NCBI RefSeq assembly: GCF_020382885.2
Contig: NC_058497.1
Coordinates: 17,414,330 to 17,478,329 of the forward strand
Direction of reading: 5' to 3'
Length of the DNA stretch: 64,000 bases
Origin: Scatophagus argus
Lineage: Eukaryota > Chordata > Actinopteri > Scatophagidae
The translations under genes were made by a program, and so were the position numbers. The first letter of the stretch is position 1. Each line of letters begins with the position of its first letter. Of this stretch, positions 13,861 to 62,524 are shown one piece after another. The notes below the pieces were generated by a model that was not told the origin of the DNA, did not search any database, and saw nothing but the letters and a program-made list of their open reading frames with translations.

Positions 13861-13980
13861 AGGCAGAGTCAGGCACTGCCAAGATGGCAGCAGCTGGATC
13901 CGCCCACGCCGAGCTTCAAAGTGAACATCTATATCTGACGTTGCAGTGATTCCACTCTCTATCGTACAGATTATGATAAA
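13861..13980 (+). promoter_or_regulatory. promoter of receptor 4 (type II)
   Basis: It holds GCAGAGTCAGGCACTGCC followed by AAGATGGC (a YY1-like core), then CTGACGTTGCAGTG and GATAAATA at 13975, 79 nt before the ATG. The same order occurs before receptors 5 and 8, and none of it before the other genes. Function is inferred from conservation. Confidence 0.6.
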
Positions 13981-14053
13981 TACCCGTGCAAACCTTTCAT
14001 TACCTCTGAGGGAATCTGTAATGCCACCCAGTGGTTTACCTCTCTCAGCCTGT

Positions 14054-17000
14054 ATGATGTCCACGCAGAGGTGGCCAGAGCAGGGTTGGGCACTCTTGCA
14101 GCTGTTGTTAGCAGCATCTGTCTCTCAGGCTGAGGAGCCGGTGTGCAGTCGGAGAGGTGATCTGGTCAATCCCCAGCTATCTAAGGATGGAGACATTATG
14201 CTGGGGGGAATCTTCACTTTCCATGGCAGCTGGATAAACAGACAAGAAACGTACCTGTACAAACCACTGCCACTACAATGCACCAGGTAAATTAAAGCAT
14301 AGATATATATTTAGATCTGCAATGTCTCAGAGAAAGCAACATGGTATAAAATTAAAATAGTAATAAAATAGAACTGACTAGGAAAATGTTTTGTTTGTTT
14401 GTTTGTTTCTTGTAACATGCAATACCACAAAATGCATTTAGTTACAATGTTAATGTTTCCATTTGAAGAATAAACTTGTTTTGATTTCAACAAATATAAC
14501 TGTCCTCGTCAAGTTTGAATTTCAGAGGGTTCCAGTACGCCCAGGCTATGCTTTTTGCCATAGAGGAGATTAATAACAGCACAGTTCTGCTGCCTGGCAT
14601 CTCTTTGGGATATAAAGTCTACGATTTCTGTAGCTCTGTTGTCAGAGGAGTGAGGGTTGCACTGGCCTCAGTGAATAGTAATGAAATGGTATTTGCGCCC
14701 TCTGAGGAACCATGTACTCGACCTGCCGAAGTGCAGGCTCTTTTGGGAGTGACCTCTTCCTCTCCTTGCATGGCTATAGCTACGGTCATTGGACCCTTTC
14801 ATATCCCACTGGTGAGTAAAAATTATAACAATGAATTTATAAGATTTGAGGCAAAATACAATTCTGTAATTCTTGTAGTGAATCATAGCAAATGGTGTTT
14901 TAAAACAACTGTAGTTTTATATGTAAATCTGTGATATACATATTCATCCTTGGATGTAATTTTGTTTTCTTTTAGATCAGCCACTTTGCTACTTGTGCTT
15001 GTCTCAGTGATAAAACCAAGTACCCATCCTTCCTCAGAACAATACCCAGTGACTACTACCAGAGCAGAGCCCTGGCCCAGTTGGTCAAGCACTTTGGTTG
15101 GACTTGGGTTGGAGCTATTAGAACAAATGATGATTATGGCAATAAGGGCATGGCCACATTTACAGAAACTGCCCAGCAGCTGGGCATCTGTATGGAGTAC
15201 TCTGTGCCCTTCTTTAGAACAGATCCACCAGACAAAATACAAAAGATCGTTGATATTATCAAGGCCTCCACTTCCAAAGTGATTGTTGGTTTTCTTGCCA
15301 ACATGGACATGGATGTGCTCATACATGTGTTATCTCAACACAACCTGACTGGATACCAGTGGGTAGGCAGTGAGGGCTGGATTGTTGATTCCCAAACTGC
15401 AGCCATGAATAGACATCACATTCTGGATGGTGCCATAGGCCTGTCCATCCCCAAAGCACATGTCAGTGGCATGCGAGAGTTCATGTTGAATGTGAAGCCA
15501 CTCAATTCATCTAGTAATGAATTGTTTGCACAATTTTGGGAGAAATTATTTAGCTGTAAGTTCAAGCAATTAAAGACATCAGCAGAGAATCAGAGTGAGT
15601 GTACTGGACATGAAGATTTGACTGGAGTGCAAAACAGCTTCACTGACATGTCGCTCATGCCTATCTTTTACAATGTCTATAAAGGAGTTTATGCTGTGGC
15701 CCACGCACTTCACACTGTTCTCAACTGTAATAAAACATGTGACAAAAAGGTGCAGCTAGATCCATTAATGGTGAGTTGAACACACCAGACTTACTTTCTT
15801 ATAACAGTAACAAAGAAATGTTTTTGGGAACAAGAGCATGCTGGCAGTAGAATTAAAATATGTCAGCTAATGATCTACACTGGCGTACATCCTTTTAGAT
15901 TTTACAGCACATAAGAAAGACTCGCTTCACAACAAAGGAAGGAGATGAGGTTTACTTTGATGAGAATGGAGACCCAGCAGCAAAGTATGAAATTATAAAC
16001 TGGCAGCCAAGAGAAAATGGCATCGTGGACTTTGTCACAGTTGGTCTTTATGATGCGTCTTTACCTGCAGATCAACAGCTGAATCTGCAAAATAAGTCTT
16101 TAATTTGGGCACAGAACTCACATCAGGTGAAGTATCATGTGGTCTCTGCAACTGGTAAAAAATTTGAATTGTTACAAGTTATTTAATATTGTGACTATAT
16201 TGTCACTTTTGGTCTCAGTGTCACTGAAGTAACAGTACATGTGTTCAATAACAACACCTTGTCAAAGCGAGTGCATACATAATTTGTCTCACTGTCATTT
16301 TCTTTATGCAGGTGCCTTTGTCAGTCTGCAGTGAGAAATGTCCCCCAGGAACTCGCAAGGTTCTGCAGAAAGGAAAGCCTGTCTGCTGCTATGACTGTAT
16401 AAGATGTGCGGAGGGAGAAATAAGCAACATTACAGGTGTAGTAATACCTAATGTAAGACACAACAGTCATATTCACATGCCTTTCAAATGTAAAAAACGA
16501 TTTTTCATGTAAATTTGAAAGCAACATTATTTGTGGAGTTCTTGTAGGTTGTGATTGTGTACATTAGTATGTGACATATCCCAAACACAAAGATCAGTCT
16601 GAAGTTAGGCACATGAATTTATGCAGTCATGGAAATGAATATAAAGATCATAGCCCTAATGTGAACATGTACGTACATTTAGATCAAGTTTGATGTCATA
16701 GTTTATAGGAGCAATGAGAAAATTCTTGGCATCATTCTCATACTTCTGGTTTAACATCCACGGCAGGAGAAAGGAGGGGTAGTTGTAGTGTGTCAGCATT
16801 GTCAGAAGTGTGTTATTTGATATACCCTTAACGATTAATTATAAAATAAAATTTTCAGGTAAAGATAAAAATCATTGATGATGATATCTTGTAGCTGTCA
16901 ACTCAAAAAGAAAAGATATACATGTCTTAAGCAACACCTGCTTTTATGTTTTTTTCAGATTCTATCACCTGTGTGCGATGCCACCCTGAGTTCTGGTCAA

Positions 17001-17872: not shown

Positions 17873-17926
17873 AAACTTAAACTCATGTGGTGGCAAAGAC
17901 ATTGCAGTACACTATATTCTTTTCTT

Positions 17927-17932
17927 AATAAA
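17927..17932 (+). promoter_or_regulatory. polyadenylation signal of receptor 4
   Basis: An AATAAA hexamer (TTAATAAATTG) lies 55 nt after the stop, at the same spacing as behind receptor 3. Confidence 0.55.
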
Positions 17933-18200: not shown

Positions 18201-18840
18201 GCACTGACCAATATTTGGCTTTTGACACTGGACGAAGAACCCTGTAACACTGACTAATATTTAACATTTGTGTTCATATGGAAAGGATCCAAACAGCATT
18301 CATTCCTCGGTCAAATAAATCTTCTGTCATGTGTATTTATTGGCTCCAGCGTCTTGAACTTCTGGATGTTGGTGCGTATAGTTTTTCATTCATCTCTAGC
18401 GATGGCAAAGCTGTCTATTGGCAACAGGAAAGGTCTCAACCATCTATTCTTAGGCCAGTTTGCCCATGTAAATCAACTTTGATCACTTTTCCTTGTTAAT
18501 GAAGGTGTTTAAAGTTGATAATTGACCAAACTTTTGGTCATATCTTTGAAATAATCCCATGGTCAGCACCCCAAGTAATGGATGAACATGTAGAACGCAA
18601 TTTGTGTGGATAAACTAAAAATGTTAGCTTTACAGTGAGTTTGAAATCAACACCTTCTCCTTCCCTCAAGCGTAAGCGTGAATAATATGATATGTCTGTG
18701 AACACAGCACTAGCTTAGCCTGTAACCTCTATTAGATTAGTAGCTTTGAGCGAGACGGCTCTTTTTCAGTATCTCAACTTCATTCAACTTCTCTGAACCA
18801 CCTCTTCACCTTTCTGGCCTTGATTGGATTAGCCAGAAGT

Positions 18841-18975
18841 TAGGCGGAGTCAGGCACTGCCAAGATGGACGTAGGTGGAACCGTCCACATCGAGATCTAC
18901 AAGGACTCTTCAGAAACCTGTGAGTGACGTTACAGTGGCTCCGTCCCCTATTTGTAACACAGTGATAAATATAAG
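18841..18975 (+). promoter_or_regulatory. promoter of receptor 5 (type II)
   Basis: It holds GGCGGAGTCAGGCACTGCC, AAGATGGA, GTGACGTTACAGTG and GATAAATA at 18964, 78 nt before the ATG, in the same order as before receptors 4 and 8. Confidence 0.6.
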
Positions 18976-19041
18976 TGCAAGCCTTTCATTACTTTGAGGG
19001 AACCTGTAAGGCCAGCCAGTGGTTTAACTCTTTCAGTCATT

Positions 19042-22000
19042 ATGATGTCCTCACTGAGTTGGCTGGAGCAGGGTTGGGCTCTCATACAACTGTTGCTGGT
19101 GGTGTCTATCTCCCAGGCCGAGGAGAAGGTGTGCAGGCAGATAGGGGATCCAGAGAATGCGCAGCTATCTAAGGATGGTGATATTATGTTGGGCGGAATC
19201 TTCTCTTTCCACAGCAGCTGGATAAACAGACAGGTTACCTACATGCACAAACCACTACCATTACAATGCACTAGGTAATTTAATTATTATTACTACCATA
19301 AAAAACATTTATTTAGAAAATGTTCTTGAACAGAGTATTAAAATTTGTTCCAGTACAATACCATTAAATGCATTTAGTTCGTATGATGCTGTGTGTGTTT
19401 CAACAAAACCTGGTTGTAATTTCAACATTTCAACTGTCCTTATCAAGTTTGAATTTCAGAGGGTTCCAGTTTGCCCAGGCTATGCTTTTTGCCATAGAAG
19501 AAATTAATAACAGCACAGACCTGCTGCCTGGCATCTCTTTGGGATATAAAATTCATGATATCTGTGGCTCTATTGCAAGAGGTGTGAGGGTCACACTGGC
19601 CTTGGCAAATGGTGATCAAGTGGGATCTGCACCCAGTGAGGCACCATGTACTCGACCTGCCCAAGTGCAGGCCATTATGGCAGCAATCTCTTCCTCTCCT
19701 TGCATGGCAATAGCTACTGTCATTGGATCTTTTCATATACCATTGGTGGGTAGGAATGGAAAAAAGAAATGACATTTGTGAAAAATAATCCTTCTTCCGT
19801 AAAAAAGGTTTTACAAAAATTGTAGTGCGTTATGAAAATCTGTAATATACATTTTTGGCTGAGGATATCTATTTTCTTCTTTTAGATCAGCCACTTTGCT
19901 ACTTGTGCTTGTCTCAGTGATAAAACCAAGTACCCATCCTTCCTCAGAACAATACCCAGTGACTACTACCAGAGCAGAGCCCTGGCCCAGTTGGTCAAGC
20001 ACTTTGGTTGGACTTGGATTGGAGCAATTAGAACAAATGATGATTATGGCAATAATGGCATGGCCACGTTTACAGAAGCCGCCCAGCAGCTGGGCATCTG
20101 TCTGGAGTACTCTGTGTCTTTCTTTAGAACAGATCCACCAGACAAAATACAAAAGATAATTGACATTATTAAGGCCTCCACTTCCAATGTGATTGTTGCT
20201 TTTCTCACCAGCATGGACATGGATGTGCTCATAGATGTGTTATCTCAACACAACCTGACTGGATACCAGTGGGTAGGCAGTGAGGGCTGGATTGTTGATT
20301 CCCAAACTGTAGCCATGAATAGACATCACATTCTGGATGGTGCCATAGGCCTGTCCATCCCCGAAGCACATGTCAGTGGCATGAGAGAGTTCATGTTGGA
20401 TGTGAAGCCACTCAGTTCATCAAGTAATGAATTGTTTGCACAATTTTGGGAGAAATTATTTAGATGTAAGTTCAAACGTTCAAATTCATCAGCAGAGAAT
20501 CAGAGTGAGTGTACTGGACAAGAAGATGTGACTGGAGTGCAAAACAGCTTCACTGATATGTCGCTCATGCCTATCTTTTACAATGTCTATAAAGGAGTTT
20601 ATGCTGTGGCCCACGCACTTCATGCCATTCTCAACTGTAATAAAACATGTGACAAAAATATGCTGCTGGATCCACTAACAGTGAGTTGATGACCATATAT
20701 TTATAGGTTTTACATTCAGGAAGAATGACAAAAAGTGGAGTAAATTTTGGAGAAATGTTGTAGTCTATCATTCATGCTGTTGAGACAACAGATCTAAAAA
20801 TATGTCAGCTAAAGATCTACACTGATGTATTTTCTTTCAGATTTTACAGCACATAAGAAAGATTCAGTTCAAAACAAAGGAAGGAGATGAAGTTTACTTT
20901 GATGAGAATGGAGACCCAGCAGCAAAGTATGAAATTATAAACTGGCAGCCAACAGAAAATGGCATTGTGGACTTTGTTACAGTTGGTTTTTATGATGCGT
21001 CTTTGTCAGCAGATAAACAGCTGAATCTGCAAAATAAATCTTTAATTTGGGCACAGAACTCACATCAGGTAAACTATGATGTGGTCACTGCAAATGCTAG
21101 ATACAATCTATTTGAATTCTTACAGTGTAAGTTACTGAATATTACATTTAGTGTATTGTCACTTTTAGTCTTGATGTCTTTCAAGTAACAATAGATGCAT
21201 GCAATGACAACACCTTTTCAAAATGAATACTCATATATTTTGTTCATGCAGGTGCCTTTGTCAGTTTGCAACAAGAAATGTCCCCCAGGAACTCGCAAGG
21301 TTCTGCAGAAAGGAAAGCCTGTCTGCTGCTATGACTGTATAAGATGTGCAGAGGGAGAAATAAGCAACATTACAGGTGAAGGAACATTTCATTCAAGAGA
21401 AAACAAAAATTTAGAAACTGCCATGTTCACAGTGTATAAAAAATGGCAGATTTTTATTTAATTTCAAAAGCAATTTCTATGGGTAGCAAGTATACATTTT
21501 TTTTCAGGAAAAGGAAAATCTGTATCATTCCATGAAAAATCAGTACCCAAATAAATAGTGATACATCAACCTGAAATCAGGTGCATACATTTATGCATTC
21601 ATGGAAATGCATAGCAAGGATAATGATTTCTGTTATTTTTCCAGATTCTATCACCTGTGTGCGATGCCACCCTGACTTCTGGTCAAATGAGAGAAGAGAT
21701 GCCTGTGTAAAGAAGGAGGCAGAGTTTCTATCATATGAAGAGGTCATGGGAGCACTGCTCACTGCTGCCTCACTGTTTGGAACATGTATGACTGCTGTTG
21801 TAGCTTTCATTTTCTTCACACACAGGACGACTCCTGTTGTCAGGGCCAACAACTCTGAGCTGAGCTTCCTGCTGCTCTTCTCCTTGACTCTGTGTTTCCT
21901 GTGTTCCCTGACCTTCATCGGTCGGCCCTCTGAGTGGTCCTGCATGCTGCGACACACTGCATTTGGGATCACCTTTGTCCTCTGTATCTCTTGTGTTCTG

Positions 22001-25795: not shown

Positions 25796-25858
25796 TCCAC
25801 AGAGAAAAAAATATCACTTTTCAATGATCTTTTGTGAAGCTGTTGCACAATATATAAA
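25796..25858 (+). promoter_or_regulatory. core promoter of receptor 6 (type I)
   Basis: CCACAGAGAAAAAAATATCA lies 43 nt above TATAAA at 25853-25858, 78 nt before the ATG. It is a variant of the type I box. Confidence 0.55.
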
Positions 25859-25930
25859 TATAAGTGTGCACTTCTGAATTACATTAAGGTACATGTGATG
25901 TCTCTCAGTGGTTTATCTCTCTTCGACAGC

Positions 25931-28900
25931 ATGATGTCCGCACAGAAGTGGCAAGAGCAGGGTTGGGCACTCTTACAGCTGTTGTTGGTGGTGTTTTTCT
26001 CTCATGCTGAGGAGCCGGTGTGCAGGCGACGAGGGGATCCCGAGAACCCCCAGTTATCTAAGGATGGGGACATTATGCTGGGGGGAATCTACAATTTCCA
26101 CAGTACGTGGCGAGACAGACAGGGTACCTACCAGCATAAACCACTACCACTACAATGCACCAGGTAAATAATACTGCACCGCTCCAAATTAGTTTTCAAA
26201 TATCCAAGAGTACAAGAGTCCAGCTACAAAACAGGTAGAAAAAATATTATTCAGCTCTCTATTGAAGTTTGAAATATCCTTTGATTTTATAAATGCATTC
26301 ATACTTTCATGTTGTTGGCTCTATTTTAAGGTCAAACTGGTTTCAGTTTTAACCATTTATAACTGTCCTCATCAAGTCTGAATTTCAGAGGGTTCCAGTA
26401 TACCCAGGCAATGCTCTTTGCCATAGAGGAGATAAACAACAGCACAGACCTGTTGCCTGGCATCTCTCTAGGCTATAAGATCTATGATGCTTGCAGCTCA
26501 GTTGCTAGAAGTGTGATGGTCTCCCTCTCCTTAGTGACTGGTGATGAAGTAGCATTTGCACTCTCTGATGAACAATGTACTAGACCTGCCAATGTGCAGG
26601 CGATCATTTTAGGTATAGCTTCCTCTCCTTGCATGGCTACAGCTACTATCATTGGACCCTTTCATATCCCACTGGTGAGTAAAAATAAAGTTGTATTTTT
26701 GAAGGAATTATTATTCTGGATGTCTTCTGTTTGGTCATTGCACAGGGCATTATTTCATATGTTATTCTCAGGACAAAATTCCTTCCTCTCTTTTAGATCA
26801 GCCAGGTTGCTACTTGTGCTTGTCTCAGTGATAAAACCAAGTACTCATCCTTCCTCAGAACAATACCCAGTGACTACTACCAGAGCAGAGCTTTGGCCCA
26901 ATTGGTCAAGCACTTCGGTTGGACTTGGATTGGAGCCATTAGAACAAATGATGATTATGGCAATAAGGGCATGGCTACATTTGTAAAAACTGCCCAGCAG
27001 CTGGGCATTTGTGTGGAGTACTCTGTGTCTTTCTTTAGAACAGATCCACTAGACAAAATACAAAAGATAATTGAAAATATCAAGTCATCCACTTCCAAGG
27101 TGATTGTTGCTTTCCTCTCCCCCACAGAGTTGTACGTGATAATACATGAGTTGTCTCAGCAAAATCTGACAGGGTACCAGTGGGTAGGCACTGAGGCCTG
27201 GATTTTTGATTTTCAAACTGCAGCCATGGATAAGCATCACATTCTGGATGGTGCCATAGGCCTGTCCATCCCCAAAGCACATGTCAGTGGCATGAGAGAG
27301 TTCATGTTGGATGTGAAGCCACTCAATTCATCTGGCTATGAATTGTTTACAGAGTTTTGGGAGACTTTATTTAGCTGTAAGTTCAAGCAGTCAAATACAT
27401 TAGCAGCAAATCAGAGAGAATGTACTGGACACGAAGATGTGAGTGGGGTGGAAAACAGCTTCACTGATATGTCGCTCATGCCTCTCTTTTACAATGTTTA
27501 TAAAGGAGTGTATGCGGTGGCCCACGCACTTCACAACATTCTCAGTTGTAATAAAACATGTAACAACAAGGTGCAGCTAGATCCATTAACGGTAAGTTGA
27601 ACAGCAGATACTGGAATTATACTTTACTTTCACATTTAGTCTCATTAAATCAGTCACATGAAGAAAATACTTTAAATTATGAAAATAAAGCACAGTCTTT
27701 CATAATCTTGAGAGAACAGATATCAAAGTATTTTTCAGGAAATGATCAAGCCTATTTTCTTAGATTTTGGAGCACATAAGAAAGATTCAGTTCAAAACAA
27801 AGGAAGGAGATGAGGTTTACTTTAATGAGAATGGAGACCCAGCAGCAAAGTATGAAATTATAAACTGGCAGCCAACCAAAAGTGGCGTTGTGGATTTTGT
27901 CACAGTTGGACTTCACGATACATCTTTACCTGCAGGCCAACAGCTGATTCTGCAAAATAAGTCCTTGATATGGGCACAGAACTCCCAACAGGTAAACTAC
28001 CATCTGATCACTGTAATTCTTAATGACAGTCTATTTGAATTGTAATAATTGTTTATGTTATTAATTATTGAGACCGTGTCATTTTACTAGAAGCTGTATT
28101 AGACAAAATTTCTCAAAGTGAATGCACATACAATTTTTCTAATTGTGATTTTGTTCATGCAGGTGCCTTTGTCAGTTTGCAGCGACAAATGTTCCCCAGG
28201 AACTCGCAAGGTTCTGCAAAAAGGAAAGCCTGTCTGCTGCTATGACTGTATAAGATGTGCAGAAGGAGAAATAAGCAATACTACAGGTGTAGCAATATTT
28301 CATGCAAAAATCTAGAAGATGTTGCAATCACATACCTTATTCTAATTAATTAAGACTAATTAATTACATACCTACCTTTATTTTCAGAAATCTTGAGTCA
28401 CATCTATATGAGGTGAAAGGAGGGGTTGTGGCACAATCCGTATGAGTAATAATATATATCTAAAGTAAAGTAAAATATCTAAAATGTACATATACTTAAA
28501 AAGATCTCACATTGATGTGCCTATTTTAAGATTAAGTATAATAAACAAACCATAAACCAACATTACATCAAAACTGAATACATTAAACATAGATATAAAA
28601 CACTGACTGTGACCTTTTGTAATTAGTCATGGAATCACTGTCACCTATAGGCAGCAATTACGTTTGTGAGTATGTATGTGTGGTCTGTGCATCCCTTGAA
28701 TGCTTTAAGCCAAGAAACAAAATATTAGGGAGGCTGGCGTACATAAGGCATTAACCACATCAGTACAGTTAATTATGATGATGTATGATTTTATATGTAC
28801 TCTCATAAATTGATATATTGATATTGCAATGATACTGTTTTTGATACTGAAACGGTGTGATACTGATTTATGTTTTTGTTTTTTTGACAGATTCCATCAC

Positions 28901-29807: not shown

Positions 29808-30500
29808 AAACATAAAATCATATGGTGGCAAAAGCACTCTAGTGCCATCATAAAATACTGTCAAGTAGGTATCTATCTTTATTTTTGCGAAGACTTTAAC
29901 TGTACAACTATAGTATTTGTCCAATATATATAAAATTTAATTTGCGACATAGTCTGTTGACATGACATTACACAGTAATATACAATACAAAGTAATTTAC
30001 AATCAACATCCATCTCTCTCTTTGGCTCTCAATTATGTATTTCCTTTTTGTAGGATAATCCAGGGTATTCCATTACCCTGGATTAGACCCTAATTGTAAA
30101 GTGACTCTAAAGTGATGCAAACCCAGACATCACTGTAGAGGCAAATCAGGGCCCAAAGTTTCATTAATTTGAAAAACAAAAAAAACCTTGAAACTGAAAG
30201 TTGAATTTTGGATTTTGAACTTAAAACTTACAAAATATAACATTGCACTCGAACTAAAAATAGGTATAGAATGTTTTTTTTTTTTTCAATTAAAAAATTA
30301 GTCTTATTCAGTTCTGAAATTATTTTGAATAAATTATTTATTTTCAATTTTAACTTTCATATGTATTTCAGTAATTGAGGTGTTGTGTTTTTCAGTTGCA
30401 GATTTTGTGTTTGCAGATTTACATCTTTTTTTTACAGTTTCAAATCGCATTTTATCAGTTTTAGATCTTTTTTTCACTTTCAAGTCTCATTTTTATTATG

Positions 30501-30651
30501 AGTTCAGTGTTGCTGTGGAAATATTTGTTATTCTGGCTTCAAATTTTGAACTGCTGATTTGTTTTTTTATTCCAAAATGTAATATTATCTTACTGAAACC
30601 ACAGAAGAATATGAAAAAGAATATGATTGGAAAGGGACACCAAAACCATTG
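30501..30651 (+). pseudogene. decayed tail of an OlfC exon 6
   Basis: The sequence from AGTTCAGTGTTGCTGTGG onward matches the end of exon 6, from just before helix 7 to the stop region: [33 protein letters not shown]. It differs from every intact copy at several residues (PKCN for PKCY) and a one-base deletion near GKGHQ shifts the frame past the usual stop. No other exon of this copy is visible. The downstream bases (GAAAACTTAAAATTATATGG) still resemble a receptor 3' flank, so this is a remnant of a lost thirteenth gene or of an unequal exchange. Confidence 0.8.
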
Positions 30652-31785: not shown

Positions 31786-31835
31786 AAAATATCACTTTTC
31801 AATTATTTGTTTTATGCTGCTACACAATGTATAAA
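31786..31835 (+). promoter_or_regulatory. core promoter of receptor 7 (type I, weak box)
   Basis: AAATATCACTTTTCAATTAT lies about 43 nt above TATAAA at 31830-31835, which is 78 nt before the ATG. The upstream box resembles that of receptor 6. Confidence 0.5.
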
Positions 31836-31907
31836 TATCAGTGTACACCCTTGAATTATATTAAGGCATGTGTGATGCCGCTCTGTGCATTAGCTCTCTG
31901 AGACAGC

Positions 31908-32661
31908 ATGACGTCCACACAGAGGAGGCCAGAGAAGGGTTGGGCAGTCTTACTGCTTTTGTTGGTGGTATCATTCTCTAAGGCTGAGGAGACGGTGTGC
32001 AGGCAGAGAGGGGATCCAGAAAATCCCCAACTGTCAAAGGATGGGGACATCATGCTGGGGGGAATCTTCTCTTTCCACAACAAGTGGATAAACAAACAGG
32101 ATACCTACATGCACAAACCACTGCCACTGCAATGCACAAGGTAAACCATCTTTATAGGCTCCAAATATCTAAGAGTAAGTGACTACAGATACAAAACATT
32201 TCCAAAACCAAACTCTCAAAGTGAGTATTAAAATAAATAAGAAATAGAATTTATTGTGCATATAAGTACCATCAAATATTTAATTTACTGTTTCATTGTT
32301 TCTTCAATTTAACAATTTAAAACTGTCTGCATCAAGTTTGAATTTCAGAGGGTTCCAGTACGCCCAGGCTATGCTCTTTGCAATAGAGGAGATTAATAAC
32401 AGTACAGAACTGTTGCCTGGTATTTCTTTGGGCTACAAGATGTATGATGACTGTATCTTCATTGCTAGAGGTGTGAGGGTTGCACTGGCCTTGGCTAATG
32501 GCAATGAAATAGTATTTACACCTTCAGAGGCACCATGTACCAGAACTGACCAAGTTCAGGCCATTATCGGAGGGACCTCTTCCTCTCCTTGCATGGCTAT
32601 TTCTACTGTCATCGGACCCTTTCATATACCACTGGTGCGTAAGATATTAATGAAAATATAC

Positions 32662-36958: not shown

Positions 36959-37406
36959 AAACATAAAATCATATGGTGGCAAAAGCACTCTAGTGCCATC
37001 ATAAAAAAACTGTCATGTAGACATCTATCTTTATTTCTGTAAAGACTTTAACTGTACAACTATAGTATTTGTTCAGTATATATATAATATAATTTGTGAC
37101 ATAGTCTGTTGACATGACATTACACAATAGTGTATAATACAAAGTAATTTACAATCAACATCCATTTCTCTCTTTGTCTCTCTATTATGTATTTCCTTTT
37201 TGTAGGATGACAACTGATTAGGCTGAGTGGCCCAGAGCTGAACAGAGATAAACCATTGTTAAAGCTGCTCCTTATGGTTCTCCTCAGAGGGCCGGCAAAC
37301 TCAGGGTACCAGTTGTAACGTTCAGTACAACCAGCTGATCAGATCCAAGATGGTGACCTTTTTTATTAAATTTTGCATGCGGAAGGATTATTATGTTATG
37401 ATTATG

Positions 37407-37454
37407 TTACAGTTAGGGTTTAATCCATTACCCTGGATTAGACCCTAACTGTAA
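37407..37454. repeat. inverted repeat, 20-bp arms
   Basis: TTACAGTTAGGGT and TAATCCA are mirrored by TGGATTA and ACCCTAACTGTAA around a short TTACCC centre. It may be the end of a fold-back element. The homologous spot behind receptor 6 (30057-30084) keeps a different, shorter hairpin. Confidence 0.7.
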
Positions 37455-37710
37455 AGTGATGCAAACCCAGACATCACTGTGAAGGCAAATCAGGGACCAA
37501 AGTTTCATTAATTTGAAAAAAAAAAATACTTGAAATTGAAAGTTGAAATTTGAACTTATTGTTGAAATACAACAATGTACTCGAACTAAAAATAGGTATA
37601 GGAAAAGTTGTTTTTTTAAAAAATACTTTTTATTCAGTTCTGAAATTATTTTGAATAAATTATTTATTTTCACTTTTCACTTTCATATTTTAATAACTGA
37701 GGTGTTGTGT

Positions 37711-38070
37711 GGGCGGCACGGTGGTGCTGTGGTTAGGACTGTCGCCTCATACCAAGTGGGTTCCAGGTTCGAATCCCAGTCTGGGCCCTTCTATGTGGAG
37801 TTTGCATGTTCTCCCTGTGCCTGCGTGGGTTTTCTCCGGGTACTCCGGCTTCCTCCCACAATACCAAAAACATGCACATTAGGTTAATTGGCTACTCTAA
37901 ATTGCCCCTAGGTGTGAGTGTGAGAGTGTGTGGTTGTCTGTCTTTGTGTGTTGGCCCTGCGATTGACTGGCGACCAGTCCAGGGTGTACCTCGCCTCTCG
38001 CCTGTAGTCAGCTGGGATAGGCTCCAGCTCCCCCGCGACCCTGAGGGATAAGCGGTATAGAAAATGGATG
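37711..38070 (+). mobile_element. tRNA-headed SINE with 12-bp target-site duplication
   Basis: This is a 360-bp insertion flanked by GAGGTGTTGTGT at 37699-37710 and 38071-38082. The head has a pol III B-box (GGTTCGAATCC). The body has the GTTTGCATGTTCTCC and GGGATAGGCTCCAGC blocks of a SINE abundant in fish, and the tail is AAAATGGATG. The homologous flank of receptor 6 has the site without the insertion. Confidence 0.85.
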
Positions 38071-38130
38071 GAGGTGTTGTGTTTTTCAGATGCAGATTTT
38101 GTGTTTTCAGATTTACATCTTTTTTTCACT

Positions 38131-38158
38131 GTCACATTGAAGTCAACTTCAATGTGAC
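38131..38158. repeat. short palindrome
   Basis: GTCACATTGAAGT is followed by CA and its exact complement ACTTCAATGTGAC. It sits where the flank of receptor 7 stops matching that of receptor 6. Confidence 0.85.
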
Positions 38159-38660
38159 TTAAATAATTAAAAGGGACTTCAGCAACTTCATGACTCACAA
38201 ACCAAGGCATGTGTATCCCGGCAACATTCATCACTCACGAGAAGTGAGTATGTAGTAAGTAGATGCAAAGCATTTACTAAAAGTTAATCAATCTATAAGT
38301 TTATAAGGTCTAATATATGCAGTTGTCTGTTGATTATAAAGATGTTATTTGCACCTTTTTATAAGGCAATTTAATCACTGTAGTTACTGTAGTAGGTGCA
38401 CCGCTTATCCATCAGGGTCACAGGACGGCTGGAGCCTATTCCCGCAAGACAAACATTTACTTTTGTAAACTTACTTGCTTTCCATGTGAACCTTTTTATC
38501 ACACAACATATGATGTGAAAACAACAATAGCCTAGCTTATCAGCCTTAGCTAGCTTGGTAGCTTTGAGTTAGGTGGCTGTGGTTCAGTGTTACTTGGCAT
38601 CTCTGAACTTCTCTCACCCATGTGCCACCCCTTTGCCCATTTTTGGATTAGCCAAAAGTT

Positions 38661-38789
38661 AGGTGGAGTCAGACAATGCAAAGATGGCAAGGGCTGGAAC
38701 CGCCCACACTGAGCTTCACAATGGCTCTTCAGAAACCTCAGGATGTCATCATAGTGCGTCCCTCCACTATTTTCTGATGGTATGATAAA
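38661..38789 (+). promoter_or_regulatory. promoter of receptor 8 (type II)
   Basis: AGGTGGAGTCAGACAATGC, AAGATGGC and GATAAATA (at 38784, 78 nt before the ATG) occur in the order seen before receptors 4 and 5. The TGACGT part has drifted to TGTCATCATAGTG. Confidence 0.6.
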
Positions 38790-43075: not shown

Positions 43076-44393
43076 AAAGGGTACAATTGGCATTCATTCT
43101 TTTGCTCAAGTGACTCAGCAGTTGTCATGTATTGATTGGCCCTCAAGACATTCCTGAAATATCATGATAATGAGAATTGGACTGATGTGAGGACACAGTA
43201 GCTTGACCTTTGACCACCGAACTGTCAGTCTCGAGTCCAAGTTGACATCTGAACTAAGTTTTACAAAATTTCATGAATATATTCCTTGCATTCACAAAGA
43301 ATAGAGATGTAGAATACAGGCATAGCAATATGCATCTTTCTTTGTGCAACCCTCCAAATATGGTCACTTTTGGCTCCAAAAATCAAGATGATGGTGGCTG
43401 TAATGCCAAACCAGTCCCAAGACAAGTGTATCATGGTATCATGGTATGGTATCATGGACATCATGGTAGATTCATTCTTTATTTCATATACAGTCTATGG
43501 TTAAAATCACAATAAAATGCCCAAGTCCTGTCCTCCCTCATGCCCAGGTATATAAAAATATAAAATACATTTATGAATATATATATGTTTTAACTCATGT
43601 CTTGTGGAGACGGTGTATTGAGCCTTAGGCCCTGGGGCCATGAGCCTTAAGCTCCAGCTACAACTCTTATGTGCGCCTGTTGCGCATCTTATAATAAGTG
43701 GCTGCAGTTGGACATCTGACTTTTCAGAGGTCATAACATACTTGAGTTTGTCTATTAAAGAAATCACATCAGTATTTTAAGGCAAACCAAGTGATTAAAA
43801 ATAGAGACACATATGACAAGACACAGCAATTCAGGTAAACCACATAAGCACGCAAGGTGGACTAAAAAGCACAGAATTCTACTAAAAACATGCAAAGTAC
43901 CTTGTTACCCTTTTATTTCAACCAAACCAGAGTCTGTGGAAAAACAAACAAAGATGCCCCTGAATCTGAAGTGTGTTATACGATGAATTAAAGACAAATG
44001 AGCTAAATTTAGTTCAGAAAAAGGGAAATATGATGTCATGATGTCCTTAGTTGAGGTACAAAGTGGCACTACGAGATAAGATGGGCCAAGGCTAGCTGAT
44101 TAACATGCGGTAGTTTGCATTACTTTTATTTTTTTCCCCAGGAATGTCTATTAAATTCCATCTTTAAAGATTCCCCGTCCAAAATAAATAATTGAAATAA
44201 ATTTATCCTGCAAATCCTGATATATTTATTATTTGGAGAAAAAAAAAATATTTTGTCTATTATTTTGTGACATATAAATTGTACCACCATAATGTTCCAA
44301 TAGTAACATATGGAAGAAAAACATACAGCTAACTATTGGTTCTTTATTTTCTGTTTGGTTATCTTCCTTGTCTTACCCACCCCAATGGTCCTA

Positions 44394-44447
44394 AGAGATC
44401 AAACATCACTGTTCCATTATTTTTATGCTGCAGCAAAAATGTATAAA
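44394..44447 (+). promoter_or_regulatory. core promoter of receptor 9 (type I)
   Basis: AGAGATC-AAACATCACTGTTCC lies 41 nt above TATAAATA at 44442, 79 nt before the ATG. It is nearly the same as the promoter of receptor 12. Confidence 0.6.
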
Positions 44448-44520
44448 TACCAGCCACAAGCTTTTGATTTACATGAACATACTTCTGAGAGCACCCAGTG
44501 GTTTGGCTCTCCCAGACTGT

Positions 44521-47500
44521 ATGATGTCCACACACAAGTGGCCAGAGCAGGGTTGGGCTCTCTTGCAGCTGCTGTTGGTGGCATCTGTTTCTCAGGCCGA
44601 GGAGTCGGTGTGCAGGCGAAGAGGAGATCAAGAAAATCCCCAGCTATCTAAAGATGGAGACATTATTCTGGGAGGAATCTTCTCTTTTCACAGCAGCTGG
44701 AAAGATATACAGGACACCTACATGCACAAACCACTGCCACTGCAATGCACCAGGTAAATTATACAAATTTAACAGAAATCTATTTAAATTTGAAAGAAAA
44801 TAACAGAAACATCCTATTATATATATTTTAAATTCATTATGGAAGATGCATACGAGACAGGTTAAGAAAAGGTGTTCAAAATGATTACCTAAATAAGAAA
44901 CATATTATATTGTGTATCAACTGCTTTCAATTACTGTGCAACAAAAAAATATAGCTTTTTATATGTGTTGGCATGAAGTTTGAATTTCAGAGGGTTCCAG
45001 TTTGCCCAGGCTATGCTCTTTGCCATTGAGGAAATTAATAACAGCACAAGTTTATTGCCTGGCATCTCTTTGGGCTATAAACTCTATGATGCCTGTGGCT
45101 CCATTGCCAGAGGTGTGAGGGTCTCACTGGCCTTGATTAATGGTAATGAAGTGGTAGCTGCTCCCTCTCAGACAGCATGTACCAGACCTGCCCAAGTGCC
45201 GGCTATTATGGGAGAAACCTCATCCTCTCCTTGCATGGCCATAGCTACTGTCATCGGACCTTTCGATATCCCACTGGTGAGTAAGATTTTTAAAAATCAA
45301 GTTAAATTTCTATAAAAAAATATCCTGTAATTCTTCAGCTGCTCATAGCAAAGGGGTTGTAAAAATATGATGTGCTGTGCAAATGCTTTATGTTGTATAC
45401 TTTTACACTCTTTCTATACTTTTCCCTGGGTCCTTGTTTTTTATTTTTTTTATTGTTGTTGTTTGTTTTGTTTTGTCTTGTTTTTTTTTTTGTTTTTTTT
45501 TTACCTCAGATCAGCCACTTTGCAACTTGTGCTTGTCTCAGTGATAAAACCAAGTACCCATCCTTCCTCAGAACAATACCCAGTGACTACTACCAGAGCA
45601 GAGCTTTGGCCCAGTTGGTCAAGCACTTTGGTTGGACTTGGGTTGGAGCGATTAGAACAAATGATGATTATGGCAATAATGGCATGGCCACATTTACAGA
45701 AGCTGCCCAGCAGCTGGGTGTATGTCTGGAGTACTCTGTGCCTTTCTTTAGAACAGATACACTAGACAAAATACAAAAGATCATAGACATTATCAAAGCT
45801 TCCACTTCCAAGGTGATTGTTGCGTTCCTCTCCCACATGGACATGGATGTCCTTATACATGAGTTGTCTCAACACAACCTGACAGGGTATCAGTGGGTAG
45901 GCAGTGAAGGCTGGATCTTGGATTCCCAAACTGCAGCCATGGACAAGCATCACATTCTGGATGGTGCCATAGGCCTGTCCATCCCCAAAGCACATGTCAG
46001 TGGCATGAGAGAGTTCATGTTGGATGTGAAACCACTCAATTCATCTAGTAATGAATTGTTTACAGAGTTTTGGGAGACTTTATTCAGCTGTAAGTTCAAG
46101 AAATCAACATCATTGGCGGAGAATCAGAGTCAATGTACTGGACATGAAGACTTGAATGGTGTGCATAACAGCTTCACTGATATGTCACTCATGCCTATCT
46201 TCAATAATGTCTATAAAGGAGTGTATGCTGTGGCCCACGCACTTCATAGTATTCTCAGCTGTAATAAAACATGTAACAACCAGGGACAACTAGATCCATT
46301 TAAGGTGAGTTGAACACCAATGACTTAAATTACAGTTTCTACATGAAAAGTTCAATGTTAGTTGCAATCTGCAACCTCACCTCCAGAAGTCCTACACACT
46401 GAAGCCTCTTTAAAAAAGTTAATTTATTTTTTGAAACAAATGGTCTCTCATACTGTTGAGACAATAAAAGCGATTTTAAGAAAGTGATCTACATTGATCG
46501 TACTTTATACCTTTGTAGATTTTGCAGCACATAAGAAATATTCACTTCAAAACAAAGGAAGGAGATGAGGTTTATTTTAATGAGAATGGAGACCCAGCAG
46601 CAAAGTATGAAATTATAAACTGGCAGCCAACAAAAAGTGGCGTTGTGGACTTTGTTACAGTTGGTCTTCACGATTCATCGTTAACTGCAGACAAACAGCT
46701 GAATCTTCAAAATAAGTCTTTAATTTGGGCACAGAACTCAAAACAGGTAAGCCACAATTTGATCACTATAGTTATTAATGACAATCTATTTGAATTTTTA
46801 TAACTGCATAAGTTATTAGGTATTTTTATTATATCATCGGTGTTTACTTGCCATCCTTGCACTTATAATGGATGTTTGCAAAGACAACACCTTTGTCATA
46901 GTGAATGAAAATAGATTTTTCAATGAATGTCATTTTGTTCATACAGGTGCCTTTGTCAGTTTGCAGTGAGAAATGTTTGCCAGGAACTCGCAAGGTTCTG
47001 CAGAAAGGAAAGCCTGTCTGCTGCTATGACTGTATAAGATGTGCAGAGGGAGAAATAAGCAATATCACAGGTATAATAACATTCAAAACAATTGTTGTGC
47101 ATCTTAGGTCTGGGGTTCCACCACTGTCCTGCCCTGAGGCTGCACACCTCCAGCCTCTCGTTCCCTTGTTCTCCAACCTCCAGGCCATTTGCCCAAGATC
47201 TCTAACTCTTTATGCCTTCCTTTGTCTAACCAAAAGTCCAAAACCCTGAAAGACGAATTAATTTATTATTTTAAATGAGAAAAGAAGCAAATCCTTACAT
47301 TTAAGAAGCTGAACCCAGCAATTATCACTGAAAAGTTCTCAAAATGTATTCAAATGCTTAGTACTTTCAAATACTTTCTCAACTACTTTTCTTCAGATGG
47401 AATACTTTATTCATCAATAAATCGAAAAGATATTGTCAGCTGTATCATATGTAAGCAATCCTGTTTTCAGTGAACACACCTGAAATAAACAGGCAGACAA

Positions 47501-51837: not shown

Positions 51838-51898
51838 GAGAGATCAAACATCATTGTTCAATCAATTATTTTTTTACGCTGCTCCAAAAATGTATAAA
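51838..51898 (+). promoter_or_regulatory. core promoter of receptor 10 (type I, short leader)
   Basis: AGAGAGATC-AAACATCATTGTTCA lies about 46 nt above TATAAA at 51893-51898. The TATA start is only 59 nt before the ATG, about 20 nt closer than in other genes, because of a deletion in the leader. Confidence 0.6.
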
Positions 51899-51951
51899 TT
51901 CCAGTGCAAGCTTTTGATTCATCACACAGTAGTTTAGTTTTCTTAGATGAT

Positions 51952-52803
51952 ATGATGTCCACTGAGAGGTGGCCAGAGCAGAGTTGGGCACTCTTACAAC
52001 TGTTGTTGGTGGCATCTTTCTCTCAGGCTGAGGAGGTGGTGTGCAGGCAGAGAGGGGATCCAGAAAATCCCCAGCTATCTAAACATGGAGACATTATGTT
52101 GGGGGGAATCTTCTCCTTCCACAGCAAGTGGACAGACAGACAAGATACCTACATGCACAAACCACTGCCACTGCAATGCACCAGGTAAATTATACCATAG
52201 ACATCTAATTAGATTTAAAATAGCTGTGAAGAAGTGAGTAGATAAAAAAGAGGTATCAGACTGAGTTCAAATGTGTTGTGTCTGTAAATACTATCAAATG
52301 TTTTAATTTACTGTAGTATTGTTTCTGTGTTGAGGAGAAATTGTTTATTAATGTCAAGATTTATAATTTTCTGCATCAAGTTTAAATTTCAGAGGGTTCC
52401 AGTTTGCTCAGGCTATGCTCTTTGCCATAGAGGAAATTAATAACAGCACAGATCTACTGCCTGGCATCTATCTGGGGTACAAGATCTATGATGCCTGTGC
52501 CACCATTGCCAGAGGTGTGAGAGTTGCACTGTCCTTGATTAATGGTAATGAAATGGTATTTGCTCCCTCTGAGGCATGCACCAGATCTTCCCAAGTGCAG
52601 GCTATTATGGGAGAAACCTCGTCCTCTCCTTGTATGGCTATAGCTACTGTCATCGGACCTTTCCATATCCCAATGGTGGGTTAAGATTGGTAAATACTTG
52701 TGAAAAATATATTTTTGGTTATTATTGTTTTATTTTTTATTTTATTCTGTAATTCTGCCAACTGGTCAAGGGTCAAAAGATCTGTAGTGTGGTGTGAAAA
52801 TAT

Positions 52804-57426: not shown

Positions 57427-57485
57427 ATAGAAATCAAGCATTGCGGTAATATCGTCATTGTTCATGCTGCTCTGAAATGTATAAA
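57427..57485 (+). promoter_or_regulatory. core promoter of receptor 11 (type I, altered box)
   Basis: TAGAAATCAAGCATTGCGG, then TCATTGTTC, lies above TATAAATA at 57480, 80 nt before the ATG. The box is stretched relative to receptors 9 and 12. Confidence 0.5.
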
Positions 57486-57559
57486 TATCAGCATTAGCTT
57501 CTGATTTAGATTAAGGTAGACTTAGGCTTGTGGTGAGTGGTTTAGGTGTCTTAGTCGGT

Positions 57560-60500
57560 ATGACATCCACACAGAGATGGCCAGAGAAGAGTTGGGCATT
57601 CTTACACCTACTGTTGGTGGCATCTCTTTCTCGAGCTGAGGATCCGGTGTGCAAGTGGAGAGGGGATCCAGAGAATCCCCAACTATCTAAGGATGGAGAA
57701 ATTATACTGGGGGGTCTTTTCTCTTTCCATAGCACATGGAAAGAGAGACAGGAATCCTACATGCACAAACCACTGCCACTGCAATGTGTCAGGTAAATTA
57801 AATAATAAAAATCTAGTTCTATCTAAATTATCAAACCAGAAGTCAACAGACAGAAAAAAGGTGATCATACTGAGCATTAAAGTAAGACATATATCTTGTT
57901 ATGTGTATTGTTATGCGTATGTGTATACAATTTAATTGTGTTCATTTACGAAGCTATTGTTTACATTTTGAGGACAAAATTTTTTGCAATTTCAGCTATT
58001 TTCTAACTGTTGATATTAAGTTTGCATTTCAGAGAGTTCCAGTTTGCCCAGGCTATGCTGTTTGCAATAGAAGAGATTAATAACAGCACGGACCTGCTGC
58101 CTGGAGTCTCTCTGGGCTATAAGCTCTATGATGTGTGTGGCTCGATTGCCAGAGGTGTCAGGGTTGCACTGGCCTTGGCTACGGGTAATGAAGCGATATA
58201 TGCACCGTCCGAGGCAGCATGTACCAGACCTGCCCAAGTGCAGGCCTTAATGGGGGAGACTTCTTCCTCTCCTTGCATGGCAATAGCTACTGTCATAGGA
58301 CCCTTTTATATACCAATGGTGGGTAAGAGAAAAAGAAAACGTATTTGTGAAAAACAATTATTAGTGAGTAGTTCTTCCAGTTGGTCATGGAAAAATGTTT
58401 ATGATTGTTTTTTTAAATTTGTTTGTTTGGTGTGTTTTGTAAATCTTTTATTTCTTCATCTGGGGATATGATTTCTTTCTTTTAGATCAGCCACTTTGCG
58501 ACGTGTGCTTGTCTCAGTGATAAAACCAAGTACCCATCCTTCCTCAGAACAATACCCAGTGACTACTACCAGAGCAGAGCCCTGGCCCAGCTGGTCAAGC
58601 ACTTTGGTTGGACTTGGGTTGGAGCTATTAGAACAAATGATGATTATGGCAATAATGGCATGGCCATATTCACAGAAGCTGCCCAGCAGCTGGGCATCTG
58701 TCTGGAGTACTCTGTGTCTGTTTTTAGAACCGACCCACCAGACAATATACAAAAGGCAATTGACATTATCAAGGCTTCCACTTCAAAGGTGATTGTTGCT
58801 TTCCTCTCCCACTTGGATATGGATATGGTAATTCATGAGTTCTCTCACCACAACCTGACAGGGTACCAGTGGGTAGGCAGTGAGAGCTGGATCTTTGATT
58901 CCCAAACTGCAGCCATGGATAAGCAACACATCCTGGATGGTGCCATAGGCCTGTCCATCCCCAAAGCACATGTCAGCGGCATGAGGGAGTTCATGTTGGA
59001 TGTGAAGCCACTCAACTCATCTAGTAATGAATTGTTTACAGAGTTTTGGGAGAAATTATTTAGCTGTAAGTTCAAGAATTCAAATTCATCAGCAGAGAAT
59101 CAGAGCGAGTGCACTGGAAAAGAAAAACTGACTGGAGTGCAAAACAGCTTTACTGATATGTCGCTCATGCCTATCTTTAACAATGTCTATAAAGGAGTTT
59201 ATGCTGTGGCCCATGCACTTCATGCCATTCTCAATTGTAATAAAACATGTAACACAAAGGTGCAGCTAGATCCATTCACTGTGAGTTGAACAACAATACA
59301 TAAACTATCATTTTTACACGAAAACATACCTACAAAATATTTGTTAGATAATTATTCTGTCATTCTGCTTAGACATCGGACCTTTATGTTACCCATGTCT
59401 GTCACATTATTATTTACACTGACACAAATCTTCTTAGATTTTACAGCACATAAGAAAGATTCGGTTCAGAACAAAGGAAGGAGATGAGGTCTACTTTAAT
59501 GAGAATGGAGACCCAGCAGCAAAGTATGAAATTATAAACTGGCAGCCAACAGAAAATGGCATTGTGGACTTTGTCACAGTTGGCTTTCATGATTCATCAT
59601 TGCCTGTCGACCAACAGCTGAATCTGCAAAATAAGTCTTTAATTTGGGCACAGAACTCCCAACAGGTAAAGTACCATAAAATTACAGCAATTGTTTTGAT
59701 GTAATAATTGCTAATTAGTAATAATTGTTACTTTATTATAATGCTTGATTTGGACACATCAAAATATAAATCCTTGCAATGACAGCCTCTTAGCAAAAAA
59801 AAAAAAAGAAATTGCACATTTATTTTTTGTCATAATTTTGTTCATGCAGGTGCCTTTGTCAGTCTGCAGTGAGAAATGTCCCCCAGGAACTCGCAAGGTT
59901 CTGCAGAAAGGAAAGCCTGTCTGCTGCTATGACTGTATAAGATGTGCAGAGGGAGAAATAAGCAACATTACAGGTATTGCAATAATTAGTCCAAGACAGA
60001 AGTTCAAAAGTTGTTGTGTTGTTAAGTCAACATTGAGAATTGGCATAGTTTTCTAATCTGACCTAAAATACATGGAAATTCCTACAAGAAATACATGATA
60101 ATTTTTCTCAAACTACTAGAATGGTTGTTATTACTAAATAAAACAATGAACAAAAATGAATAAAAATACCTATATTTTGTACTGACATTCAGCTCATGCT
60201 AATAGCATGTACCTATTAAATGCAGAGAAGTAATTTCCCAGCTTGGGATTAATAAAGTAACTTAAAATTTAATAAAATTAAAATTAAATTATATAATTAT
60301 ACATATATTATCTGGTAACCATGTAGGTTCTCTTTTGTAGGCACTGGAAATATTTAAGATTGATGCACAAAAAAGACAAATTTAGTGAGTGAGTTGTAAT
60401 ACCTGCATTAACATTATTTTTTTCAGATTCTATCACCTGTGTGAGATGTGACCCTGACTTCTGGTCAGATGAAAGGAGACATGCCTGTGTAAAGAAGGAG

Positions 60501-61340
60501 GCAGAGTTTCTATCATATGAAGAGATTATGGGAGCACTGCTCACTGCTGCCTCCCTGTTCGGAACTTGCATGACTGCTCTGGTAGCTTTCATTTTCTTCG
60601 CACACAGGACGACTCCTATTGTCAGGGCCAACAACTCTGAGCTGAGCTTCCTGCTGCTCTTCTCCTTGACTCTGTGTTTCCTGTGTTCCCTGACCTTCAT
60701 CGGTCGGCCCTCTGAGTGGTCCTGCATGCTGCGACACACAGCATTTGGCATCACCTTTGTCCTCTGTATCTCTTGTGTTCTGGGGAAAACAATAGTGGTG
60801 TTGATGGCCTTCAGGGCCACACTTCCAGGTAGTAATGTGATGAAATGGTTTGGGCCTGCACAGCAGAAACTCAGTGTTCTGGGTTTCACTGTCATACAAG
60901 TTGTCATATGTGTCCTCTGGTTAACAATTTCTCCTCCTTTTCCCTTCAAAAATTTCGAGGAGTCCAAGCATAAAATCATCTTAGAGTGCGCTCTGGGCTC
61001 AGCTGTAGGCTTTTGGGCTGTGCTTGGGTACATCGGACTTCTGGCCATGTTGTGTTTTATTCTTGCTTTTCTGGCTCGGAAACTGCCTGACAATTTCAAT
61101 GAAGCCAAATTTATCACCTTTAGCATGCTGATATTCTGTGCAGTATGGATCACTTTTATCCCAGCGTATGTCAGCTCTCCTGGGAAGTTCAGTGTTGCTG
61201 TGGAGATATTTGCAATTCTGGCTTCAAGTTTTGGACTGCTGATTTGTATTTTTATTCCAAAATGTTATATTATCTTACTAAAACCAGAGAAGAATACAAA
61301 AAAGAATATGATGGGCAAGGTGGCATCAACATCATTCTGA
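57560..61340 (+). CDS. OlfC/V2R-like class C chemoreceptor 11 (complete, 6 exons)
   Basis: Exons are 57560-57792, 58033-58318, 58486-59280, 59438-59665, 59850-59973 and 60427-61340, giving 859 aa. Signal peptide [10 protein letters not shown] to SLSRA, Venus-flytrap domain, linker and seven helices are complete, with Ser156, Thr179, Asp199, Tyr227 and Glu306. Distinct residues are REFQFAQ at the start of exon 2 (RGFQ elsewhere), [47 protein letters not shown] after helix 1, [10 protein letters not shown] in the second extracellular loop and the tail GKVASTSF. Exon 4 and the preceding intron end are nearly identical to receptor 10, while intron 5 resembles that of receptor 2, so different parts of the gene have different nearest relatives. 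Confidence 0.92.
60231..60262 (+). repeat. Rex1-like 3' tail in intron 5 of receptor 11
   Basis: TAATTTCCCAGCTTGGGATT followed by AATAAAGTAA is similar to the tails at 1694 (minus strand) and 47836. It is followed by AAATTTAATAAAATT repeats. Confidence 0.4.
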
Positions 61341-62469
61341 AAACTGTAACCACTGTACCACATGCTATCCAATATATGTTATATGGATATTCATATACAC
61401 ACACACGTGTGTAAAAACTGTGATCACAGAATAAAATCCATTTGTTTGGTATTCTGAGGCTGGAATTCAACCACCATAAATTTCTTTTTTCTGTTGAATG
61501 TGTGTTTAATGCTCTGTAGTGAGCTCTAGAGTTCATCCAGTTTCGAGGCTGATTCTGAGGCTCTTGATTATGCTGGGGAAGAAAGATCCCGTGTCATGAC
61601 TCAACACACCCAGCTGAGCTGACTCAAGAAAGCAACTGTGTTACTGGGGGCATTTTTATCATTTCACACTGAGCAGGATTTCGCAGTTAACAATGAACAT
61701 GTTTCAGACAATTTCAGAGGTACAAAAATGCAACACTACGTGATATTACATCTATCTCTTTTAGGGATAGACTAAGTTTATTTTTTATAGTATTTGAGAC
61801 ATTTATTGAAATATATAATATTTCATTCTATGTTTCGCCACTGCAGCCTGTCTGTCTTGCTCTTTTTTTGGTGTAACAGTGCAACATACTATCATGGTGG
61901 TTTATCAAATATTCATGAAATACAGTCTATAGGTTTTCAGGAACATGGACACAAATGTTTATTTCTTTCATGATGCTAAGCCCAACTGTCTTCCATGCCT
62001 GCACCACATTTCTTTCACTGATCGATAGACTACATTTATGAACTGTTTCAGGGTTTGAATCCCATCTGTGGTTAGGTTTAGGCAACAGTGATACTTTGAT
62101 TAAGGTCAGGAAAATATGTTTTTTAATTTAGAGGCTTGTCTTTGCTCAGAAAAGACAGAAATTTGAATTCAGAAGGTTTACAATAAACTAAAATGAAACA
62201 ATAAAGAACATGTCATACTTTACAAACTTGCTACTTGCATACATTTCCCAGCCGAAATTATGGGGGTCTATTAGACTGTCACCTTGCTAGCTGGCTAGCT
62301 AGTAGTTATTAATATGATATTCATTTTTGAATGTTTTAAACTAAAATTCCTGTCATTCCTGTCCTTTTGTACAGCATAACTATGCTTATGTTAAAACATA
62401 TTCATTTAAAAAAATAAAAATAAACTAATACCCAATACCCTCCCTGATCTCATCTACTTTGAAGGTCCA
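61341..62469. other. spacer between receptors 11 and 12
   Basis: This is a 1.1-kb AT-rich spacer. A short AC run lies at about 61396-61406. I recognise no gene, mobile element or flank duplication in the rest. Confidence 0.5.
61430..61435 (+). promoter_or_regulatory. polyadenylation signal of receptor 11
   Basis: AATAAA in CAGAATAAAATCC lies 90 nt after the stop; the context resembles that behind receptor 2 (AGAATAAAATCC). Confidence 0.55.
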
Positions 62470-62524
62470 CAGAGATCAAACATCACTGTTCCATTTGTTT
62501 TTGTGCTGCTGCAAAATGGATAAA
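62470..62524 (+). promoter_or_regulatory. core promoter of receptor 12 (type I box, GATAAA)
   Basis: AGAGATC-AAACATCACTGTTCC, nearly identical to receptor 9, lies 40 nt above GATAAATA at 62519, 82 nt before the ATG. It joins the type I upstream box to the GATAAA form seen in type II promoters. Confidence 0.6.

Follow-up and report, generated by a model that had tools for sequence, protein, structure and literature searches.

How a single chemoreceptor gene comes to be selected from many is still an open question, for which a natural comparison is offered by a 64,000-nucleotide (nt) stretch of DNA from Scatophagus argus (contig NC_058497.1, positions 17,414,330 to 17,478,329), referred to below as the window. 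The window is occupied by teleost OlfC (V2R-like) receptor genes arranged in tandem on one strand: the 3' end of one gene (R1) is followed by ten complete genes (R2 to R11) and the 5' end of a twelfth (R12). The DNA just upstream of these genes is of two kinds: type A, found in R2, R3, R6, R7 and R9 to R12; and type B, found in R4, R5 and R8. Do the two types represent two regulatory programs, or do they record the descent of the genes that carry them? Our analysis indicates that the pattern is real, and its main feature appears to be ordinary descent within a gene array. The promoters described below lie on the plus strand, and all positions are those of the window.

A common segment from TATA to ATG

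First exons were located for eleven genes, R2 to R12, and each has a TATA-like box at a constant position upstream of the start codon. From R2 to R12, the start of [TG]ATAAA precedes the first ATG by 78, 78, 79, 78, 78, 78, 78, 79, 59, 80 and 82 nt. These distances bear out the earlier note on this DNA, which had placed TATAAA or GATAAA 78-82 nt before the ATG in ten of the eleven genes and 59 nt before it in R10. Among 7-nt ranges taken at random from the window, the frequency of [TG]ATAAA on the plus strand is 0.0115, a figure to be read with the reservation that the eleven genes are duplicates and so are not independent trials of the spacing.

Alignment reveals that TATA-to-ATG is a single homologous segment in all eleven genes. 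In R10 about 20 nt of this segment have been lost, which accounts for the short distance there. Mean pairwise identity over the segment is 0.687 among type A genes (28 pairs) and 0.802 among type B genes (3 pairs), with shuffled values of 0.46-0.48; between the types (24 pairs) it is 0.664, as against 0.481 for shuffled sequences. Since the segment is homologous throughout the array, the constant distance is inherited. It reflects common ancestry and, on its own, is no sign of a spacing rule, although selection may also keep the spacing if the start site matters.

The 5' ends of the reading frames show some further features. In R2, R3, R4, R6 and R8 (5 of 11), an in-frame ATG occurs 33 nt before the first ATG with no intervening stop, and could give an N-terminus that is 11 residues longer. 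R7 also has an ATG 33 nt before the first one, but there a stop follows; in R9 a different in-frame ATG lies 48 nt before the first.

Two unrelated upper promoters

Above the TATA box the homology between the two types ends. Over the first 100 nt upstream, type A and type B genes are 0.444 identical, compared with 0.449 when shuffled (24 pairs), so that the breakpoint of homology lies at TATA. Within the types, identity over the same 100 nt is 0.665 for type A (28 pairs) and 0.630 for type B (3 pairs). Upstream homology is thus present inside each group and absent between the groups, as in promoters that are specific to paralogue groups, and the proposal of two distinct promoter types is confirmed in the form of unrelated upstream sequences on a common TATA-to-ATG segment. 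A chance likeness within the types can be dismissed, since alignment extends over 100-270 nt and is not confined to the boxes. A single promoter type that has drifted is likewise ruled out, as the identity between types above TATA equals that of shuffled sequence.

Type A promoters have about 100-120 nt above TATA in common, including a AACATCACTGTTC box. Their homology is on average lost past about 120 nt above TATA (0.498 versus 0.482 shuffled), and some pairs, such as R2-R3 and R2-R11, align further up. At zero or one mismatch, all five matches to AACATCACTGTTC in the window fall in promoters (R2, R3, R9, R10 and R12). The box is specific only at this level, because five of the seven two-mismatch matches lie outside promoters, the other two being the boxes of R6 and R7; at three or fewer mismatches the window holds 50 matches against 33.9 expected. 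Eight genes had been said to carry this box, or a drifted form of it, about 40 nt above TATA; it is clear in seven, in which it starts 40-46 nt above. In R11 the box has drifted: the best match has three mismatches and lies 29 nt above TATA, and the sequence at the aligned place is degenerate. The best match in R4, R5 and R8 has five mismatches, the number met most often when 100-nt stretches are drawn at random (1181 of 3000). A profile search with the type A promoter recovers all eight members, the next best hit having an expectation value (E) of 1.2.

The exact box is found in R9 (promoter 44341-44449; box 44402-44414, TATAAATA at 44442, first ATG at 44521) and in R12 (core 62479-62526; box 62479-62491, GATAAATA at 62519, ATG at 62601). 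Boxes with one mismatch are present in R2 (2550-2898; box 2550-2562, TATAAACA at 2590, first ATG at 2668, first exon to 2898), R3 (7885-8236; box 7885-7897, TATAAACA at 7925, first ATG at 8003, first exon to 8236) and R10 (core 51847-51900; box 51847-51859, TATAAATT at 51893, first ATG at 51952). Those with two mismatches are in R6 (core 25810-25860; box 25810-25822, TATAAATA at 25853, first ATG at 25931) and R7 (core 31788-31837; box 31788-31800, TATAAATA at 31830, first ATG at 31908). The drifted core of R11 spans 57451-57487, with the nearest box match at 57451-57463, TATAAATA at 57480 and the first ATG at 57560.

Conservation of the type A promoter was assessed in the seven complete genes, leaving out R12 and dropping alignment columns gapped in at least half of the rows. 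Four blocks stand out: about -183 to -152; -127 to -108, which holds the box; -96 to -55, which holds TATA and the sequence below it; and -29 to -5. Each contains 20-nt windows that score above all 521 windows from the introns of the same genes; as overlapping intron windows are not independent of one another, fractions above introns are not probabilities. Sequence constraint on the type A promoter is accordingly graded as well supported. The uppermost block, CTGTTTGGGCAC..TCCC (about 44341-44372 in R9, and the aligned places in other genes), is a second conserved stretch above the box, which the earlier note does not mention; it is largely missing in R12.

Type B genes share a GC-richer segment of 220-270 nt above TATA, with a GC content at -220 to -85 of 0.49-0.51, compared with 0.32-0.39 in type A. 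Homology extends to about -309 in R4 and to about -355 in R5 and R8. The segments are located at 13747-13970 in R4 (profile E 2.4e-62; AGAGTCAGGCACTGCC at 13865-13880, AAGATGGC; GATAAATA at 13975, first ATG at 14054), at 18690-18957 in R5 (1.7e-86; GGAGTCAGGCACTGCC at 18846-18861, AAGATGGA; GATAAATA at 18964, first ATG at 19042) and at 38508-38778 in R8 (1.3e-85; GGAGTCAGACAATGCA at 38665-38680, AAGATGGC; GATAAATA at 38784, first ATG at 38862), each gene being itself a member of the profile that scores it. Type B profile searches recover R4, R5 and R8, and the next best hits have E 0.71 (4.9 bits) or E 1.9 (1.9 bits).

Three motifs had been proposed as common to these genes, and they fare differently. 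GGAGTCAGGCACTGCC occurs in all three, with one mismatch in R4, none in R5 and three in R8; at three or fewer mismatches the window has no other match (0.26 expected), and one of 100 shuffles reached three matches. R4 and R8 have exact copies of AAGATGGC, in whose place R5 has AAGATGGA. GATAAATA is present in all three, but R12, a gene with an exact type A box, has it as well, and GATAAA is thereby ruled out as a mark of type B. As for conservation, an 80-nt window in the type B island, at -223 to -144, scores above all 339 intron windows, and constraint beyond that of introns is moderately supported for this island.

The reading frames under both promoter types appear open. R2 to R11 have six coding exons each, and no stop codon was found in the 60 exon pieces checked in these ten genes. 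Pfam scans were made on three exons, and the other genes were judged alike by tblastn: the last exon of R11 matches 7tm_3 (3.4e-86), exon 3 of R9 matches ANF_receptor (9.1e-41), and exon 1 of R12 has no Pfam match. A class C seven-transmembrane domain and a ligand-binding domain thus lie on separate exons, as expected of OlfC (V2R-like) receptors, and teleost arrays of this family are generally known to be likewise tandem on one strand, with six exons and class C receptor domains. Because both upper promoters are conserved beyond introns (type B more weakly) and the exon pieces of the genes are open, both types are probably working promoters.

If so, the two types could reflect two regulatory programs, in which one set of factors would bind the type A box and another the type B island, and the receptors would be expressed in different neuron sets. 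What speaks for this possibility is that the upper promoters are unrelated, that both stand over open genes and that each is conserved to some extent beyond introns, and a role of the two types in different factor binding, neuron sets or receptor choice is plausible. However, the genes of one promoter type also make up a plausible lineage (see below), and unlike sequence need not give unlike expression, as the mouse V1R groups illustrate in the part of that work considered here (PMC1955453). As the explanation of the pattern, two programs are in our judgement rather unlikely. Scans with factor consensuses find the cAMP response element half site TGACGT in R4 and R5, AAGATGGC in R4 and R8, and an E-box (CANNTG) in 7 of 11 promoters, as against 0.66 of random stretches. 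None of the consensuses scanned is present in all type A genes, and none convincingly separates type A from type B.

A probable replacement above the TATA box

The explanation that we consider probable is a shared core spread by tandem duplication, combined with a single replacement of the DNA above TATA that was itself then spread by duplication. All eleven genes would have inherited one core, from TATA through about 80 nt to the ATG. In the ancestor of R4, R5 and R8, or in that of the other eight genes, the DNA just above TATA would have been replaced once by unrelated sequence. Later duplications would have carried the replaced upper promoter to the descendants, with some gene conversion in the exons. 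Each type would retain a short upstream block, about 40-140 nt above TATA, that probably binds activators, and transcription would start about 25-30 nt below TATA. The pattern needs no difference in expression, because promoter type coincides with a plausible R4/R5/R8 lineage and common descent suffices.

That R4, R5 and R8 form one lineage is plausible but weakly supported. They group together in the best tree for five of seven overlapping partitions, with support of 80/88 (80 nt above ATG), 56/42 (intron 1), 61/83 (exon 2), 73/87 (exon 1 to exon 2) and 23/47 (last exon); the exon 3 and last-exon trees contain ten genes, R12 being absent. In the remaining two partitions the grouping is not rejected by the approximately unbiased (AU) test (exon 1, p-AU 0.314; exon 3, p-AU 0.349), and an earlier run also joins the three for the 88 nt above ATG (97). 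The gene tree is unrooted, and hence the changed lineage may be either the ancestor of R4, R5 and R8 or that of the other eight.

Several observations weigh against replacement followed by descent. The type B comparison comprises three sequences only: its island peaks at 20- and 40-nt windows (0.90 and 0.79) do not reach the highest intron values (0.933 and 0.808); the part adjoining TATA, at -143 to -84, is within the intron range; and the identity of 0.630 over 100 nt is little above the 0.583 seen in intron 1 of the same genes. In the earlier run, exon 1 scatters R4, R5 and R8, exon 3 places R11 beside R4 and R5 before R8, and the last (transmembrane) exon, with R1 included, sets R8 apart from R4 and R5. 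Finally, in exon 2 the partner of R4 is R8, and a pairing of R4 with R5 is weakly rejected (p-AU 0.0447). Given this last result, exon histories may be mixed and transfer of a promoter by gene conversion is possible; the trees suggest gene conversion or mixed histories among these paralogues.

Carried further, such exchange could have moved promoter type from gene to gene independently of coding lineage. The disagreement of the exon trees is what this would produce, exon 3 making sisters of R4 and R5 (100/99) where exon 2 has R4 and R8 together, and the transmembrane-exon tree that includes R1 separating R8 from both. None of the seven partitions, however, rejects the R4/R5/R8 group, and we regard movement of the promoters by conversion as improbable.

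One candidate source of the type B sequence is a dispersed fish repeat (transposable element), which would have inserted itself at the TATA box of an ancestral gene. Such a repeat would supply upstream elements, or displace and replace them, and is compatible with a single replacement above a shared core. Its remnant could account for the abrupt loss of homology between types at TATA and for the GC-richer composition of type B, and the R8 segment is flanked immediately beyond its two ends by a 10-nt inverted pair (9 of 10). The pair is confined to R8, though, the best in R4 being 7 of 10 and in R5 8 of 10, and equally good pairs occur in 25 of 600 random 271-nt segments. Nor does the 64-kb window hold a further copy: the best non-promoter hit scores 1.9 bits, while five mononucleotide-shuffled windows gave 0.9-4.1. 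The window also lacks any tRNA and any Rfam family that reaches the gathering score, and no displaced type A promoter lies upstream of R4, R5 or R8 at better than E 0.22 (3.2 bits), a search that a decayed copy would escape. On balance, an origin in a repeat is possible but doubtful. A more specific version, to which we give little credence, is a modular promoter exchange with its junction precisely at TATA, possibly through the capture of a mobile element. It would install a new upstream switch in one lineage of the array, retain the core, and leave adjacent, closely similar receptors answering to different factors in different neurons.

The type B segment may also resemble a repeat common in teleost DNA. 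A putative string of that repeat has one match in the window, in R5 (0.00 expected), which does not count as independent evidence, as the string was written after R5 had been read; the literature yielded no match for the repeat strings. Type B patterns were also scanned against viral and bacterial collections. Twenty viral stretches match, with flanks unlike the type B segment, and several of them are the same coding-like stretch. Two with identical flanks (L018 and L019) have an R5-like CTCCGTCCACC 34 nt before the match, which is taken as coincidence in view of the wrong spacing; the viral matches are judged to be chance. In bacteria there is one match, judged without its flanks, and this is about what chance would give (about 0.5 expected by our own estimate); the other type B pattern scans of these collections gave no match. 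With the transmembrane exon as bait, viral contigs gave 19 pattern matches, none of which was confirmed as a relative.

The spacers after R6 (29959-30438) and after R7 (37111-38132) have pieces in common at 80-93% identity, and these similar spacers precede R7 and R8, genes of unlike promoter type. In the R6-R7 spacer, positions 30500-30634 hold a fragment of the last (transmembrane) exon, with 80% identity over bait residues 254-298, that looks like the relic of a receptor gene.

Comparison with other chemoreceptor promoters

No description of OlfC core promoters was found in the literature, as judged by titles and the starts of abstracts, with subscription papers mostly outside that scope; the methods passage of PMC5966872 and the portions of PMC9525060 considered here describe no such promoters. 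Two mouse families offer a comparison. According to the part of the source available to us, mouse odorant-receptor promoters contain O/E-like and homeodomain sites (PMC3247230). They resemble the present promoters in being short and proximal in a large chemoreceptor family. In the array, simple consensuses for EBF (CCCNNGGG) and homeodomain (TAATTA, TAATKA) sites are present in none of the eleven promoters at -230 to -60, a range in which degenerate sites are possible, and every promoter has a TATA-like box at a set place.

The mouse V1R genes are closer in pattern. In the portions of the report considered here (PMC1955453), members of a paralogue group have homologous upstream sequence, which as a rule does not extend to other groups, and groups that are clustered together may have unrelated promoters (H/I and E/F), whereas A/B and J/K do share them. 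The same report discusses a competition model for mutually exclusive choice, the groups mostly differing in promoter sequence. Our array likewise shows upstream homology within groups and none between them. The differences are threefold: V1R groups are deep coding subfamilies, whereas here both types occur on close paralogues that still share TATA-to-ATG; the conserved V1R upstream regions are about 0.5-1 kb, as against 100-270 nt here; and V1R start sites were mapped for most subfamilies by rapid amplification of cDNA ends, whereas here a start about 25-30 nt below TATA is predicted. The type A promoter offers short candidate elements that can be tested, namely the upper block, the AACATCACTGTTC box and TATA. 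The array as a whole provides a natural comparison, in which closely similar receptors with a common TATA-to-ATG core stand under two unrelated upper promoters, and it appears to present the same kind of pattern as the mouse V1R promoters, on closer paralogues.

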